Source: Pseudomonadota bacterium (GTDB lineage Bacteria > Pseudomonadota > Gammaproteobacteria > Burkholderiales > Sulfuriferulaceae). From it: a DNA stretch of 64,000 nucleotides. The position numbers and the translations under genes are program-made. This document shows, piece by piece, positions 3,625 through 9,800 of this stretch. The stretch is from positions 1 to 64,000 of the forward strand of contig JAJZUW010000006.1 of NCBI GenBank assembly GCA_021845925.1, given 5' to 3'. The notes beneath the pieces were generated by a model. It saw nothing but the letters and a program-made list of their open reading frames with translations. It searched no databases and had not been told where the DNA came from. Positions within the stretch are counted from its first letter, which is position 1; every line of letters begins with the position of its first letter.

Positions 3625-4116
3625 ATGTCACCCATCATTTCACTGATTGCCGCTGTCGCGCGCCAGCAGGCCATTGGCGCACACAACACATTGCCATGGC
3701 GCCTGCCGGAAGACCTGCGCCATTTTCGCGCCACAACCACCGGACATCCGGTCATCATGGGACGAAAAACCTTTGATTCGCTCGGCCGCCCGCTGCCAGA
3801 CCGGACCAATATCGTCATCACACGCAACAGCGAACTCGAACTGCCCGGCTGCCTGATCGCCACTTCGCTTGCGCAGGCCATTCGCATCGCAGGCGAAACC
3901 CAGGAAATTTTCGTTATCGGCGGCGCGCAGATCTACGCCCAGGCCATGCCAATGGCCAACCGATTATATCTGACTGAAATCGATCTGGATGTCCCGAATG
4001 CAGACGCCTGGTTTCCGGCCGTCGATCCAGCAGAATGGCATGAGACCGACCGCGCAGCGCATTTCAGCGACCAGATCGGCTGCCAGTATTCGTTTGTCCG
4101 CTACGAGCGAAAATAA
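3625..4116 (+). CDS. folA: Dihydrofolate reductase
   Basis: NADPH-dependent reduction of dihydrofolate to tetrahydrofolate, cytosolic. The 163-residue protein starts ISLIAAVARQQAIGAHNTLP, with the substrate-site WRLPEDLRHFRATT, the cofactor motif VIMGRKTFDSLGRPLP and the second nucleotide-binding block EIFVIGGAQIYAQ, all in the usual order and length. The open frame begins at 3535, but the ATG at 3625 follows GGAG and gives the family N-terminus. It stands alone, divergent from aas and upstream of the CRISPR island. Confidence 0.95.
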   Translation: MSPIISLIAAVARQQAIGAHNTLPWRLPEDLRHFRATTTGHPVIMGRKTFDSLGRPLPDRTNIVITRNSELELPGCLIATSLAQAIRIAGETQEIFVIGGAQIYAQAMPMANRLYLTEIDLDVPNADAWFPAVDPAEWHETDRAAHFSDQIGCQYSFVRYERK

Positions 4117-4424
4117 AAAAAGGCTATTTGCATTCTGAGGTTGAAAGCCGGATTGCCCGACCTACCGGGCAATCATCTGTTTAGCGCGAAACATGGTTGG
4201 ATTCCGACTCAGGGGAACGCCTCGTTGTGTGCAAAACCAGGTAGACTGCGAATGTGACCAACTTAGTTGGAGCCGCCGTTCGGTCATTCTGGAAAGCAGC
4301 CATCTGAACGACCGCTGCACTTTCGGAACCTGCCGGAAGGGCAATGCACACTATTCGGCCATAGCTGCCGGGGCGCGAGCGACTGCAATCAGGCAACTTC
4401 ATTCATGGCTAGTTGAACGCCATC
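4117..4424. other. Non-coding gap between folA and the tracrRNA
   Basis: About 308 bp without a credible gene. A 9-bp inverted repeat (4151-4159 with 4166-4174, GATTGCCCG / CGGGCAATC) lies just after folA and could be a weak folA terminator, though no clear T-run follows. The remainder has short, poorly supported open frames on both strands. Its text recalls degraded intergenic repeat sequence, but I cannot name an element. Confidence 0.5.
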
Positions 4425-4457
4425 AAAAATAAAAAGAGCCGCATATAGCGGCTCTTT
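4425..4457 (-). terminator. Intrinsic terminator of the tracrRNA
   Basis: A 7-bp GC-rich stem (4436-4442 GAGCCGC with 4448-4454 GCGGCTC), extended by three A:T pairs and closed by a 5-nt loop, is followed on the minus strand by TTTTTATTTTT (4435-4425). On the plus strand only TTTCATTT follows, so the main direction is leftward. Confidence 0.85.
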
Positions 4458-4516
4458 CATTTGGTGCATCTTTCAGCTTGTTAGCGTCCAGAGCGCAAAT
4501 CCCAATCTACTGATGC
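4425..4516 (-). ncRNA. tracrRNA of the type II-C CRISPR system
   Basis: Read leftward from about 4515, the RNA begins with an anti-repeat. Positions 4488-4508 (21 bp) are identical to positions 8-28 of the CRISPR repeat in crRNA sense, so the minus-strand RNA is perfectly complementary to crRNA over that stretch. A short CCGG / ACGCU internal loop and a 3-bp GUU:AAC lower stem complete the duplex. Then comes CTGAAAGATGCACC, close to the first stem-loop of the N. meningitidis tracrRNA as I recall it (CUGAAAAGAUGUGCC). The RNA ends in a GC-rich hairpin with a T-run. Expected length is about 90 nt. Confidence 0.85.
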
Positions 4517-4521
4517 GGCGT

Positions 4522-4550
4522 ATCCTAAAGCGGAAATATTATGCAGTCAA
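4522..4550 (-). promoter_or_regulatory. tracrRNA promoter
   Basis: On the minus strand: -35 TTGACT (4550-4545), a 17-bp spacer and -10 TAGGAT (4527-4522), placing the start near 4515, immediately before the anti-repeat. It sits inside the cas9 upstream region, facing away from cas9. Confidence 0.7.
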
Positions 4551-4561
4551 GGAAATCGTAC

Positions 4562-4567
4562 TAGAAT
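4562..4567 (+). promoter_or_regulatory. Candidate -10 of the cas9 promoter
   Basis: TAGAAT lies 26 bp before the cas9 ATG. The -35 at 17-bp spacing (TTATGC, 4539-4544) is poor and overlaps the spacer of the divergent tracrRNA promoter. The assignment is tentative. Confidence 0.35.
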
Positions 4568-4593
4568 CACCCACACACATCAGGGAGAACAAC

Positions 4594-7500
4594 ATGCTGC
4601 ATAAAATGCACTATCGCTTGGCACTCGATTTGGGATCAACCTCACTCGGCTGGGCGATGATCCGCCTTAATGCAAACAACGAGCCTTGTGCGGTAATTAA
4701 GGCAGGAGTGCGCATCTTCTCGAATGGGCGCAACCCCAAAGATGGCTCATCGCTGGCAGTGACCCGCCGCGAAGCTCGCGCCATGCGCCGCCGCCGTGAC
4801 CGCCTGCTGAAACGCAAAGCGCGCATGATGCGCACGCTCATCGAATATGGATTCTTCCCCGCCGAAGAAGCAGAACGCAAGGCGCTGGAAACAATGAATC
4901 CCTATGCCTTGCGTGCCAAGGGGCTGATTGAAGCGCTCACCCCTGTCGAATTTGGCCGCGCGCTGTTCCACATCAACCAGCGGCGCGGGTTCAAGAGCAA
5001 TCGCAAGACGGACAAGAAAGACAACGACAGCGGCGCGCTAAAATCTGCCATCAACAAGTTGCGTGAAACCCTCAAGACTGAAAATTGCCGCACGATAGGT
5101 GAATGGCTAAACAAGCGTGATGTAGCGGGTCAAACCGTCCGCGCCCGTTACCATCAGGACAAAATTATCAAGGACGACGGCAAGACAAAAATAGACAAGT
5201 ATTACGACCTCTACATTGACCGTGCCATGATCGAGCATGAGTTCGACGAACTGTGGAAAAAACAAACCGAACTGAACCCAATGCTGTTCAACGAAAAAGC
5301 ACGCGACGATCTGAAAGATGTGTTGTTGTATCAACGTAAGCTCAAGCCCGTTAAACCGGGGCGTTGCACTTTCATACCCGACGATGAGCGCGCGCCGCTA
5401 GCCTTGCCCAGCACGCAACGCTTCCGCATGTATCAGGAGGTGAACAACCTGCGCATCCTGCGGGAAGGCTTGAAGGAAGAGCCGCTGACTTTGAAACAGC
5501 GCGATGATCTTATCGCGGCACTGGAAGCCAACAGCAAGCGCACCTTCACGCAAATCAAGAAACTGCTTGGCATAGGCGGCGCGGTTCAATTCAATTTTGA
5601 AGACCCAAAACGCGAAGAACTCAAAGGCAATACCACCAGTGCCATCCTGAGCAAAAATGAACACTTCGGTTCTGCATGGTTCATGTTCGACGAAGCAAAA
5701 CAAGATGCCATCGTGATGCAACTGGTCAAAGAAGAAAACGAAGCCAGGCTCGTGCGTTGGCTGCAAGACGAAACCGGCATTGATGAAAAGCGCGCCGAAA
5801 CCATTGCCAATGCCGGGCTGCCGGAAGGCTATGGCAGCCTGTGCGCCAAAGCGCTGGCCCGCATCCTGCCGGAACTGCGCCGCGACGTGGTGACCTATGA
5901 CAAAGCGGTACAGGCCGCAGGTTTCGAGCATCACAACAGGCTCAATCAAAACGCCGAAATTCCCGGTATCACCTTCAAAGCCGAAAGCGTTGACCAGGAT
6001 ACTGGCGAGATAAAAACCTTTCACATTTTCAATGAACTGCCTTACTACGGCGAATATCTGCAACGCCACGTCGGTTTTGGTAGCGGCAATCCAGAAGACC
6101 CCGCCGAAAAACGTTACGGCAAAATCGCCAATCCCACCGTGCATATCGGGCTGAACCAGGTACGTCTCGTGGTGAACGCACTTATCAAACGCTATGGACA
6201 TCCATGCGAAGTGATTGTCGAATTAGCGCGTGACTTAAAGCAAAGCAAAGAGCAACGCGATGAGGAAAACAAACAGCAAGCCAAGAATCAAGAACGCAAC
6301 AAGCGACTGCGCACTGCCATTGCTGGCGCCTTACAGATCAGTGAGGAACGGGTTCGCCGCGACGACATCGAGAAGATGATCATGTGGGAAGAGCTCAGCT
6401 CTGATCCGGCAGACCGCCACTGCCCTTACTCCGGCGCGCAAATCAGCGCAGCCATGCTATTGAGCGATGCAGTGGAAGTCGAACATATTCTACCTTTCTC
6501 GCAAACGCTGGACGACAGTCTCAACAACAAAACAGTGGCGCTCCGCCAAGCCAACCGCATCAAGGGCAACCGCACACCTTGGGAGGCTCAACACGATTTC
6601 GCTGCCCAGGGCTGGGACTACCAAGACATCCTGTCCCGTGCAGAACATATGCCAAAGGCAAAATGTTATCGCTTTGCCGAGGACGGCTACAAACGCTGGC
6701 TGAAAGACGATGCGGGGTTCTTGCCGCGCGCTCTGAACGACACGCGCCATCTAAGCCGTGTGGCGCGCGAATACCTGAATCTGATTTGCCCGAATACCCG
6801 TGTCATCCCCGGTCGCATGACCGCCATGCTGCGCGGCAAATTCGGCCTCAACGATGTGCTCGGCTTGAATGGCGACAAGAACCGCAATGACCATCGCCAT
6901 CATGCGGTGGACGCTTGCGTGATTGGCGTGACGGATCAAGGCCTGCTGCAGCGCTTCGCTAAAGCCAGCGCCAGTGCAAGAGAGCAGCAACTCAATCGCC
7001 TCGTGGACAATATGCCGTTGCCGTGGGAGAGCTACCGTGAGCATGTGCAGCGCGCTATCGGCGCAATCTGGGTAAGCCACAAACCGGATCATAGCCATGA
7101 AGGTGCAATGCACAACGACACGGCTTACGGCTTGCGCGGCGAAGGTAAAGTCAGCCTCCACAAAATGGTAGACGGGAAACGTGAGCGTATTGAGGACAAT
7201 CTCAAGGTTATTGAAATTTCCAATGCCAAAACCGCAGAACGGCATGGACTGCTACCCACTGGCGAACCCAAACCATACAAGGGTTACAAAGGCGACAGCA
7301 ACTACTGCATTGAAATCGCACGTAATGAAAAGGGGATGTGGGAAGGCGAAGTTATTTCCACGTTTGATGCCTACCAGTTGGTGCGCGAACATGGTTTTGC
7401 GCGGTTGCGCCATCCGACTTTGAGTATTAGCGGAAAGCCATTGGTAATGCGTCTAATCAGCAATGATTACGTTCGACTAAATCATGAAGGTGCGATAAGA

Positions 7501-7698
7501 ACATTGCGCGTCTGCAAAATAAGGAAAGATGGGCAAATTGCATTCGCTGATGTAACCGAGGCTAATGTTGATGCTAGAACACGCGCCAAGGAAATTGCTT
7601 ACGTATTAAAAACGGGAGGCTCTATGCAAAAGTCCGAAGCACGCCGCATCAGCATCTCGCCCACTGGAGAACTACGCGACCACGGTTTCAAGGAATAG
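4594..7698 (+). CDS. cas9: Cas9 endonuclease, type II-C
   Basis: RNA-guided DNA endonuclease of about 1034 residues, in the compact size class of II-C Cas9s. RuvC-I is LALDLGSTSLGW (Asp12). An arginine-rich bridge helix follows (RREARAMRRRRDRLLKRKAR). RuvC-II is VIVELARDLK (Glu543). The HNH domain has VEVEHILPFS (His631) and RQANRIKGN (Asn654), and RuvC-III is NDHRHHAVDA (His769/770, Asp773). All catalytic positions are present, so it should be active. I chose the ATG at 4594 because AGGGAGA precedes it and RuvC-I then begins at the usual place; the in-frame ATG at 4513 would run through the tracrRNA gene. cas1 follows 5 bp downstream. Codon use is more A/T-rich than in the neighbouring housekeeping genes. 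Confidence 0.97.
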   Translation: MLHKMHYRLALDLGSTSLGWAMIRLNANNEPCAVIKAGVRIFSNGRNPKDGSSLAVTRREARAMRRRRDRLLKRKARMMRTLIEYGFFPAEEAERKALETMNPYALRAKGLIEALTPVEFGRALFHINQRRGFKSNRKTDKKDNDSGALKSAINKLRETLKTENCRTIGEWLNKRDVAGQTVRARYHQDKIIKDDGKTKIDKYYDLYIDRAMIEHEFDELWKKQTELNPMLFNEKARDDLKDVLLYQRKLKPVKPGRCTFIPDDERAPLALPSTQRFRMYQEVNNLRILREGLKEEPLTLKQRDDLIAALEANSKRTFTQIKKLLGIGGAVQFNFEDPKREELKGNTTSAILSKNEHFGSAWFMFDEAKQDAIVMQLVKEENEARLVRWLQDETGIDEKRAETIANAGLPEGYGSLCAKALARILPELRRDVVTYDKAVQAAGFEHHNRLNQNAEIPGITFKAESVDQDTGEIKTFHIFNELPYYGEYLQRHVGFGSGNPEDPAEKRYGKIANPTVHIGLNQVRLVVNALIKRYGHPCEVIVELARDLKQSKEQRDEENKQQAKNQERNKRLRTAIAGALQISEERVRRDDIEKMIMWEELSSDPADRHCPYSGAQISAAMLLSDAVEVEHILPFSQTLDDSLNNKTVALRQANRIKGNRTPWEAQHDFAAQGWDYQDILSRAEHMPKAKCYRFAEDGYKRWLKDDAGFLPRALNDTRHLSRVAREYLNLICPNTRVIPGRMTAMLRGKFGLNDVLGLNGDKNRNDHRHHAVDACVIGVTDQGLLQRFAKASASAREQQLNRLVDNMPLPWESYREHVQRAIGAIWVSHKPDHSHEGAMHNDTAYGLRGEGKVSLHKMVDGKRERIEDNLKVIEISNAKTAERHGLLPTGEPKPYKGYKGDSNYCIEIARNEKGMWEGEVISTFDAYQLVREHGFARLRHPTLSISGKPLVMRLISNDYVRLNHEGAIRTLRVCKIRKDGQIAFADVTEANVDARTRAKEIAYVLKTGGSMQKSEARRISISPTGELRDHGFKE

Positions 7699-7703
7699 GT
7701 CAG

Positions 7704-8633
7704 ATGATAGGCCGTATCGTCGAAGTTGCAGATGACAGGCGACACTTGTTCCTCTCTCGCGGTTTTCTGGTGGTGCAAGATACGGAAGGTGAACGCAAAG
7801 AGCTGGGGCAGATTCCGCTGGACGATGTCGCCGCCGTGATCGCCAATGCCCACGGCCTGAGCTATACCAACAACCTGCTGGTGGCACTAGCGGAACGTTG
7901 CGCACCTTTTGTGCTGTGCGCCGCCAACCACAATGCCGTGGGCATGGTTCTGACGATAGATGGCAACTACCAGCAGGCCAAGCGTTTCGATGCGCAGCTC
8001 GCCGCCAGTCAGCCGTTGATAAAGCGCCTGTGGGCGGAAATCGTCAAATCGAAACTTCAGCAACAGGCGGTTGCGCTCGAAGCAACGGGCGCACCTTTTG
8101 TGCCACTGCAAGCCTTGGTGCGCAAAGTTCGCTCAGGCGACCCGGATAATTTTGAAGCCCAAGGAGCGCGGCGTTATTGGGGGCTGTTGTTCGGCGACGA
8201 TTTCCGCCGCGATCAACAGGGGGGCGGACTCAACGCAATGCTCAACTATGGCTATACCGTGCTGCGCGCAGCTACCGCGCGCGCAGTCGTTTCGGCAGGA
8301 CTGCATCCGACCATCGGCTTACACCATAGCAACGGAGGGAATGCCATGCGGCTGGTGGACGATTTGATGGAGCCATTCCGCCCCATGATAGACCTGAAAG
8401 TCTGGCAACTGCATAAGCAAGGTGAAGGCATGGTTACGCCAGATAGCAAACGCGCATTGGTAAAAACCCTGTATGACGACATGCAGACCGGCGCTGGCTT
8501 GACACCCGTGATGGTTTGCGCACAAAAACTCGCCACCTCCTTAGCGCAAGTCTTCATGGGCGCAAAAGACAAACTCGACTTGCCATTGCCAGGTTTGCCG
8601 CTCGCCCTTGCAGTATCGTTTCAAGACGAATAA
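7704..8633 (+). CDS. cas1: Cas1 spacer-integration nuclease
   Basis: A 309-residue Cas1 of the type II lineage. Cas1 with Cas2 inserts new spacers at the array. The conserved metal-binding positions are visible: Glu151 (FEAQGARRYWG), His207/208 (GLHHSNGGNAMRLVDD) and Glu223 (LMEPFRP), followed by MIDLKVW. The start is the ATG 5 bp after the cas9 stop. cas2 begins 6 bp after this gene. No cas4 or csn2 is present, which together with Cas9 size makes the locus II-C. Confidence 0.96.
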   Translation: MIGRIVEVADDRRHLFLSRGFLVVQDTEGERKELGQIPLDDVAAVIANAHGLSYTNNLLVALAERCAPFVLCAANHNAVGMVLTIDGNYQQAKRFDAQLAASQPLIKRLWAEIVKSKLQQQAVALEATGAPFVPLQALVRKVRSGDPDNFEAQGARRYWGLLFGDDFRRDQQGGGLNAMLNYGYTVLRAATARAVVSAGLHPTIGLHHSNGGNAMRLVDDLMEPFRPMIDLKVWQLHKQGEGMVTPDSKRALVKTLYDDMQTGAGLTPVMVCAQKLATSLAQVFMGAKDKLDLPLPGLPLALAVSFQDE

Positions 8634-8639
8634 CGTGAC

Positions 8640-8966
8640 ATGCTTTCCGGGTATCGCCTTATGTGGGTAGTGGTGATGTTCGACTTACCCGTCGTCGAAA
8701 AGGTGGAGCGCAAGGCCGCTACGGATTTTCGCAATGCCTTGCTCGACATGGGATTTGAGATGTCACAGTTTTCCGTTTACATGCGTTTTTGCAGCAGCCA
8801 AAGCCAAGTTGACACCTACTGCGCACAGGTAGAAAAAAGTTTGCCTGTTGGCGGCAAAGTGAATATCCTTCAGTTCACCGATAAACAGTATGAACGCATC
8901 ATCACTTTTCGCGGAAAAGCCAAACAACCAAGCAAAAAATCACCTGACCAGTACGATCTTTTTTGA
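8640..8966 (+). CDS. cas2: Cas2
   Basis: A 108-residue Cas2, partner of Cas1 in spacer acquisition. The first strand MWVVVMFDLPV carries the conserved Asp15, followed by a ferredoxin-like fold pattern (RNALLDMGFEMSQFSVYMR). The tail ends in DQYDLF. It is the last cas gene, 70 bp before the first CRISPR repeat, with a palindromic hairpin between them. Confidence 0.95.
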   Translation: MLSGYRLMWVVVMFDLPVVEKVERKAATDFRNALLDMGFEMSQFSVYMRFCSSQSQVDTYCAQVEKSLPVGGKVNILQFTDKQYERIITFRGKAKQPSKKSPDQYDLF

Positions 8967-8985: not shown

Positions 8986-9030
8986 CGCCCAAAAACGCAA
9001 CAATCACTTGAATAATCAAGTGATTGTTGC
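8986..9030 (-). terminator. Palindromic hairpin between cas2 and the array, likely crRNA terminator
   Basis: A perfect 15-bp inverted repeat (8997-9011 GCAACAATCACTTGA with 9016-9030) surrounds a 4-nt loop. On the minus strand it is followed by GTTTTTGGG, so it could stop transcripts leaving the array leftward before they run antisense into cas2. On the plus strand no T-run follows. It ends 6 bp from the first repeat and might also mark the array boundary. Confidence 0.55.
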
Positions 9031-9036
9031 AATTCT

Positions 9037-9800
9037 AGTATAGCAGATTGGGATTTGCGCTCTGGCCGGAACGGAATCCATTGCCTCGCCAAAAGTTCGG
9101 ATAGTATAGCAGATTGGGATTTGCGCTCTGGCCGGAACCGTACCGAGATCGAACGCCTGACCGCTGAGAGTATAGCAGATTGGGATTTGCGCTCTGGCCG
9201 GAACTATGCTGTTGCGTCAACAACTGCCAACTGAAGTATAGCAGATTGGGATTTGCGCTCTGGCCGGAACTTACGGAATGAACGTCAGCACAGACAAACC
9301 AGTATAGCAGATTGGGATTTGCGCTCTGGCCGGAACGAGACTTGGGATAGTGTGTCTTGAGCTTGGAGTATAGCAGATTGGGATTTGCGCTCTGGCCGGA
9401 ACTATTGATTGGGCTGCAAGATTGACGGATTCAAGTATAGCAGATTGGGATTTGCGCTCTGGCCGGAACATAATCGGCATCATTCCGCCAAGAAGATTGC
9501 AGTATAGCAGATTGGGATTTGCGCTCTGGCCGGAACTCTTCGTCAGCATTTCAGCTGGCAATCTTGAGTATAGCAGATTGGGATTTGCGCTCTGGCCGGA
9601 ACACGAAGACAAGGTTTGTACCATACACATGCAGTATAGCAGATTGGGATTTGCGCTCTGGCCGGAACTGAATATGATCGCTCGGAATGGTGGGAATAAG
9701 TATAGCAGATTGGGATTTGCGCTCTGGCCGGAACAAGATCGTCGGAAATCGCCGCCAGGCGATCAGTATAGCAGATTGGGATTTGCGCTCTGGCCGGAAC
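9037..9800 (-). CRISPR. CRISPR array, 12 repeats of 36 bp and 11 spacers
   Basis: Repeats start at 9037, 9103, 9169, 9235, 9301, 9367, 9434, 9501, 9567, 9633, 9699 and 9765 and appear identical. Spacers are 30 bp, except the sixth and seventh (9403-9433, 9470-9500), which are 31 bp. In crRNA sense (minus strand) the repeat starts GTTCCGGCCAGAGCG and ends CAATCTGCTATACT. That orientation is fixed by the tracrRNA anti-repeat and the promoter-like repeat end. I saw no spacer matching elsewhere in this window by eye. Confidence 0.98.
9765..9773 (-). promoter_or_regulatory. Repeat-borne extended -10 promoter (first of 12)
   Basis: The minus strand reads TGCTATACT at the 3' end of the repeat, a TGn extended -10 plus TATACT. 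The same nonamer is in all 12 repeats. Transcription should begin about 6-8 nt into each spacer, giving crRNAs with roughly 22-24 nt of guide. This is the arrangement described for N. meningitidis (repeat ending TGCTACAAT). No -35 consensus is visible, as expected for extended -10 promoters. Confidence 0.65.

Follow-up and report, generated by a model that had tools for sequence, protein, structure and literature searches.

The described systems closest to the locus analysed here are the type II-C CRISPR-Cas systems of Neisseria, Haemophilus, Campylobacter and the Bacteroidetes. A position of the tracrRNA gene near or upstream of cas9 is already known (PMC6282205), and members of a tracrRNA family of Bacteroidetes II-C systems typically lie no more than 100 bases before cas9 (PMC9067536). 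In C. jejuni, promoters have been shown to lie inside the repeats of the array (PMC3656092). In the type II-A system of S. pyogenes, with its two tracrRNA forms tracr-L and tracr-S, the long, self-repressing tracr-L is described as a natural single guide that matches the cas promoter over 11 nt (PMC8616872, PMC11417352).

Organization of the CRISPR-Cas Locus

The window, meaning the whole stretch of 64,000 nucleotides that was analysed, carries a standard type II-C locus with the gene order cas9-cas1-cas2 and an array that is read towards the cas genes. Its main features are as follows.

4582 to 4587, plus strand: ribosome-binding site of cas9, AGGGAG, recognized by eye
4594 to 7698, plus strand: cas9, 1034 aa, ATG at 4594 (TIGR01865, E=3.3e-186; HNH_4, RuvC_III and Cas9_a)
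7704 to 8633, plus strand: cas1, NMENI type (TIGR03639)
8640 to 8966, plus strand: cas2, identified by profile match
9037 to 9800, minus strand (crRNA strand): CRISPR array of 12 identical repeats and 11 spacers

The predicted Cas9 also matches Cas9 chains of solved structure (best E 6e-65). The intergenic gaps between cas9, cas1 and cas2 are 5 and 6 bp, and the array comes next. As these gaps leave no room for csn2 or cas4, both of which are absent at the locus, and as Cas1 is of the NMENI type, the locus was assigned to type II-C. The minus strand was taken as the crRNA strand of the array because the repeat read in this direction pairs with the tracrRNA described below. On that strand each repeat has TGCTATACT at its 3' end, a sequence of the extended -10 type which, by analogy with the in-repeat promoters of other II-C systems, is a candidate promoter. 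Between cas2 and the array there is a near-perfect inverted repeat (8998-9031) followed by a short T run on the minus strand, and this may represent the end of array transcription.

The tracrRNA Gene

Upstream of cas9, the minus strand holds the following elements in succession between 4550 and 4432.

4522 to 4550, minus strand: tracrRNA promoter TTGACT-17-TAGGAT (-35 at 4550-4545, 17-nt spacer, -10 at 4527-4522)
4488 to 4515, minus strand: predicted tracrRNA 5' end (start expected near 4515) and anti-repeat (core 4508-4488)
4458 to 4487, minus strand: conserved tracrRNA tail ACGCTAACAAGCTGAAAGATGCACCAAATG, which includes the CTGAAAGATG segment
4432 to 4458, minus strand: intrinsic terminator of the tracrRNA, a hairpin with an 11-pair stem, a 5-nt loop and a T run

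A preliminary description of this DNA had proposed a minus-strand tracrRNA gene with this promoter, an anti-repeat, a conserved segment and a terminator, and every one of these elements is present where it had placed them. It had also located the promoter inside the space before cas9, which is borne out by the -35 and the cas9 start codon listed above. At its fixed place before the anti-repeat the promoter scores better than shuffled sequence (p=0.02, 100 shuffles), while the number of free promoter matches in the region 3800-5000, 1 against 0.7 (sd 1.0) expected, is on its own at chance level. Terminator-like sites number five in the same region against 1.6 expected. The fold of the whole predicted tracrRNA has a z of -3.4, with 2 of 200 shuffles being equally good.

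The anti-repeat core is identical to the array repeat at 21 of 21 bases. When the 2.34-Mb genome was searched with this core, allowing up to 3 mismatches, the 12 array copies and one inverted copy were recovered, and the reversed control gave none. With a single inverted copy in the genome, no second tracrRNA was found. In Rfam, no match at threshold and no tracrRNA family was obtained for the tracrRNA stretch, and a search with E up to 10 gave five sub-threshold matches, the best over the stretch being STnc430 (E=0.11).

Conservation of the tracrRNA Gene among Related Loci

A comparison set of 77 loci with related Cas9 proteins was scanned for minus-strand anti-repeats (at least 17/21 bases) in the 1200 bp preceding cas9. 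Using this approach, a divergent tracrRNA was identified in 72 of the 77 loci in addition to the window. One more, in locus L082, fell below the scan and was found by eye, its anti-repeat carrying a 2-nt deletion. Among the remaining misses, L071 is without upstream sequence and L061 has its tracrRNA on another contig; in L044 and L058 no tracrRNA was found with a genome-wide pattern which, being built from the repeat of L061, is a weak test for them. In all 10 of 10 further distinct loci, outside the counts of the main set, the tail motif lies on the strand opposite cas9.

In the 73 scored loci (72 relatives and the window), the anti-repeat and the cas9 match are a median of 73 bp apart (range 42-353 bp), with 65 loci at 110 bp or less and 8 with gaps of 155-353 bp. 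Tail motifs of the GCTAACAAG and GCACCAAAT types, which were picked after inspecting the tracrRNA sequences of the relatives, each occur in 73 of 73 scored loci. In 60 of 70 loci, 18-21 nt separate the anti-repeat from the beginning of the tracrRNA promoter -10. A script was used to count covariation in the 59 loci with an array of their own, which comprise 43 distinct repeat/anti-repeat pairs. These hold 116 matched changes versus 48 unmatched ones (27 + 21), and identity within own pairs is 19.88 of 21 bases versus 16.61 (sd 0.20) for shuffled partners.

At the level of sequence, these data confirm a complete divergent tracrRNA gene of the ordinary kind, placed before cas9 on the minus strand in a tight and conserved layout. 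The gene has a predicted promoter and terminator of its own, and its anti-repeat is expected to pair with the repeat, as indicated by the identical core and the covariation. This covariation and the 72 relatives also support the placement of the promoter of this divergent gene within the cas9 leader.

A number of other features were observed in the tracrRNA regions of the relatives. In the tail of the L016 tracrRNA, TGAACGCTAACAAGC is tandemly duplicated, and L034, L035, L040, L049, L054, L062 and L066 are among the loci whose tracrRNAs have a longer, hairpin-like insert replacing CTGAAAGATG. A solitary repeat lies beyond the tracrRNA of L022 (4317-4352). The 20 nt that come after it also occur at the far end of the array, and it is probably what remains of a former array end. 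A tracrRNA of the same family was also met at the edge of a contig from a viral collection (L174, 1-200).

The Candidate cas9 Promoter and Its Probable Overlap with the tracrRNA Promoter

Two further features lie between the tracrRNA gene and cas9.

4562 to 4567, plus strand: candidate cas9 -10, TAGAAT, 5/6 of the consensus and weak alone
4546 to 4573, no strand assigned: conserved 28-bp block GTCAAGGAAATCGTACTAGAATCACCCA, which holds most of the tracrRNA -35 together with the cas9 -10

TAGAAT had been put forward in the preliminary description as the best cas9 -10, about 12 bp from the tracrRNA -35. The distance is correct, the first base of TAGAAT being 12 bp away. Its standing as a promoter element is divided: it falls within a block that is conserved near the window, whereas it is without a good -35 (this would be TTATGC) and its score (p=0.22) is not above chance.

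Promoters were scored in 70 loci with distinct gaps, using an E. coli-like matrix of consensus frequencies and comparing each locus with 100 shuffles, and the tracrRNA promoter was sought 10-26 nt before the anti-repeat. A p below 0.05 was reached by the tracrRNA promoter in 66% of these loci (median p 0.03) and by the best plus-strand cas9 promoter in 13% (median p 0.31). Judged by such scores, the tracrRNA side appears firm and the cas9 side does not. With the plus-strand promoter at chance level over the 70 loci, cas9 may start elsewhere in many of the relatives.

TAGAAT is retained in 7 of 14 aligned rows and is identical in L020 and L080. In the five near relatives L016, L025, L072, L017 and L020, identity to the 28-bp block, whose limits were set after viewing the alignment, is 28, 27, 25, 20 and 18 of 28 bases, respectively. 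The corresponding values are 12, 13, 9, 6 and 4 for the next 20 bases and 28, 34, 22, 22 and 12 for the 40 bases before it. In these five relatives, no other part of the gap is as well kept as this block, which links the two promoters. If transcription is assumed to start at 4515 (minus) and 4574 (plus), with footprints from -55 to +20, two polymerases would by arithmetic share 52 bp. From this geometry and the conserved block it is likely that the two promoters overlap, and a cas9 promoter at 4562-4567 is a supported candidate rather than a demonstrated one.

The explanation which we favor, with moderate confidence as a whole, is that of a II-C locus with interlocked divergent promoters that balance their two products through mutual exclusion. 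The tracrRNA gene, directly upstream of cas9, would be transcribed away from it, and its promoter would occupy the cas9 leader. Because the cas9 -10 would sit just behind the tracrRNA -35, RNA polymerase could be accommodated only one at a time on the shared stretch; the step that we infer from this is that exclusion would keep tracrRNA and Cas9 in balance. Coupling of tracrRNA and Cas9 by polymerase interference is a plausible hypothesis for the window. What counts against an interlock is that TAGAAT, situated about 47-52 bases before the tracrRNA start as assumed here, could belong to an UP element, or that the conserved block could be a regulator site. In the eight loci with the long gaps noted above, the promoters need not overlap.

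It is also conceivable, although improbable, that the two genes share one bidirectional promoter, cas9 being started from the back of the near-symmetric tracrRNA -10 so that the two starts lie 18 bp apart. The highest mean plus-strand -10 score was indeed found at an offset of -6 from the tracrRNA -10 (z 2.8 in 12 loci, z 3.4 in 40 loci), which by arithmetic gives the geometry of the bidirectional promoters described in PMC10268837, with divergent starts 18 bp apart. This peak is weak proof since -10 elements are symmetric in general. Moreover, the offset of TAGAAT is also among the top three in the group of the window (z 2.3, 42% of 12 loci), and a single bidirectional promoter would leave the conserved TAGAATCACCCA without explanation.

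To a similarly low degree of probability, the two genes could be uncoupled neighbors, with TAGAAT being an UP element or regulator site and cas9 being read from elsewhere, partly through from folA. The latter gene is co-directional with cas9 and ends at 4116, and the weakness of the cas9 promoter agrees with such an arrangement. Conservation continues past TAGAAT into CACCCA, however, farther than an UP element usually extends. Among the 70 readable loci (three more being too short), the nearest upstream ORF (at least 120 aa, chosen mechanically) has the direction of cas9 in 37 and the opposite one in 33, and read-through from it therefore cannot serve cas9 in all loci. A regulator site would have a parallel in N. 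meningitidis, where the cas9 promoter has predicted Fur and MisR sites (PMC13431127).

Inheritance of the cas9 promoter from the repeat, through the plus strand of the anti-repeat, was rejected, as the window has TACTGATGC versus TGCTATACT in the repeat and the offset lies outside the six best, although it is the top-scoring one in a few loci (L033, L037, L074).

Spacer Targets

The PAM-side sequences of the three self-targets described in the next section, read by eye, were AGGGATAT, GGAGATAG and GGGTGTAA, with NNNNRTA in common. This motif was dropped as a PAM: an array spacer of L066 (10518-10547) matches Bordetella phage BPP-1 over 28 nt, and the protospacer there has CGGCGACG, which does not fit. 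Nine arrays were searched against phages and eight gave no usable match. The spacers of the window and L061 had weak matches only (E 0.8 or more), those of L082, L059, L057 and L055 none, a spacer of L063 had one 86% match, in a transposase, and that of L076 a match running across spacer and repeat. One plasmid search met only another array.

Candidate Natural Single Guides in Related Loci

Repeat relics between the anti-repeat and cas9 were sought in 75 loci, and strong matches were obtained in L061 (z 11.5) and L082 (z 10.1); L066 (z 2.1) was no better than several chance rows. That the cas9 start region might be a repeat relic in general was rejected, the best z beyond L061 and L082 being 3.1 among the top 18 of the 75 loci. 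In a search of 76 loci for repeats of at least 10 nt within the same stretch, hairpins excluded, pairs were found in L061, L063, L066 and L082 only. Of the three pairs in L061, two are GC-rich and lie far upstream, and the pair in L063 is AT-rich and inverted. In L061, L066 and L082, one pair consists of a seed right behind the repeat end of the relic and a copy before cas9, the lengths being 13, 10 and 11 nt, respectively. The array spacers of 62 loci, 1210 in all, served as a control: none had a seed match of at least 10 nt in its own cas9 upstream region, and nine had one of 9.

The clearest arrangement is that of L082 (Curvibacter; 4520-4760), where a degenerate repeat, a loop, the anti-repeat and the tracrRNA follow one another and the seed (4673-4683) recurs over 11 nt at 4731-4741, a target site directly next to a TATAAT on the same strand as the guide. 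Relic and anti-repeat are predicted to form one single-guide hairpin (-60 kcal/mol, z -6.5). L082 thus has the features of a natural single guide and is a candidate II-C counterpart of II-A tracr-L, with a putative role in repression.

A weaker candidate is found in L066 (Aquabacterium; 4784-4930), whose 10-nt seed recurs just before the -35 of a candidate cas9 promoter and whose relic and anti-repeat are joined by a 6-bp stem only (z -3.7). As it was recognized by its seed copy, it is no independent test. In L061 (266-315), a relic repeat is followed by a 13-nt seed that recurs at the cas9 ribosome-binding site. The tracrRNA of L061 lies on another contig of the same genome (L126/L127), behind an apparent insertion-sequence end, and both flanks share CACATATCCCAGTGTAAAA; an insertion sequence appears to have separated the relic from its tracrRNA, a tentative reading because a target duplication of 19 bp would be a long one.

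When a 24-nt site is laid out from the seed by eye, it covers the TTGAC of the candidate cas9 -35 in L066 (TTGACG-18-TAGGAT, p=0.05), TTGCAT in L082 and the ribosome-binding site in L061. Between L082 and L066, 8 of 11 seed positions are identical (chance 0.0012). Positions 2-4 differ between the two loci, with guide and target the same within each locus, and the target of L066 is mismatched at position 11. By analogy with II-A, seeds of 10-13 nt would be too short for cutting.

Such guides appear to be rare. The pattern GTTCCGG, 60-90 nt and CGCTAACAAG was found in 1 of 399 genomes of the family, that of L082 itself, the reversed control giving 17, and in viral contigs it gave 45 stretches, two of which passed a filter, neither being a tracrRNA. 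No guide of this kind was found in L079/L110, a close relative of L066 that has the repeat of L066 and a Cas9 87% identical to that of L066. Among 18 later loci (5 of them duplicates of the first set), no relic was detected with a generic repeat as query (best z 1.6). Three of the 18 hold a direct 10-mer repeat, that of L102 in a gap without a relic; a 10-nt copy can therefore arise by chance, which weakens L066. In the window, there is no relic (at least 9/16) with a recurring 8-nt seed in 4301-4700, and the array has no seed match of at least 9 nt upstream of cas9.

With confidence evenly divided, we propose that the tracrRNA locus serves to regulate cas9 in the II-C systems of this clade. 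For the most part this would be achieved by interlocked promoters, as in the window, and, in a few systems where the gap has opened, by a II-C tracr-L acting as a natural single guide, which would direct Cas9 to the -35 or ribosome-binding site of cas9 through a seed of 10-13 nt.

Comparison with Known Systems

In the passages of PMC6282205 and PMC9067536 that concern the II-C systems named at the outset, an overlap of the tracrRNA and cas9 promoters is not described. No report of self-repression in type II-C was found in the open-licence papers searched, the accounts of tracr-L there being for II-A only. An RNA of a II-C locus with a regulatory role is known in the scaRNA of N. meningitidis; it differs in that its target is the efeUOB mRNA, and in the assay described it formed no complex with cas9 DNA from the promoter to the 3' UTR (PMC13431127). 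The tracr-L candidates also resemble the CreR cas-regulating RNAs, in which a degenerate-repeat RNA has a partial match to its own cas promoter. CreR RNAs are named for types I-B, I-E and V-A (PMC13131331) and described for types I and V-A (PMC12737573), II-C not being named in the relevant passages of either article.

The window, which is without a long guide of this kind, supplies a clean type II-C guide scaffold with its Cas9 and a simple promoter pair. The tracr-L of II-A is best matched by L082, and we regard the rare II-C tracr-L candidates, L082 first, as a lead that matters more than the layout of the window. If they are what they appear to be, Cas9 feedback via a natural single guide would extend more widely than type II-A, and anti-CRISPRs would be predicted to raise Cas9 levels in these systems too.
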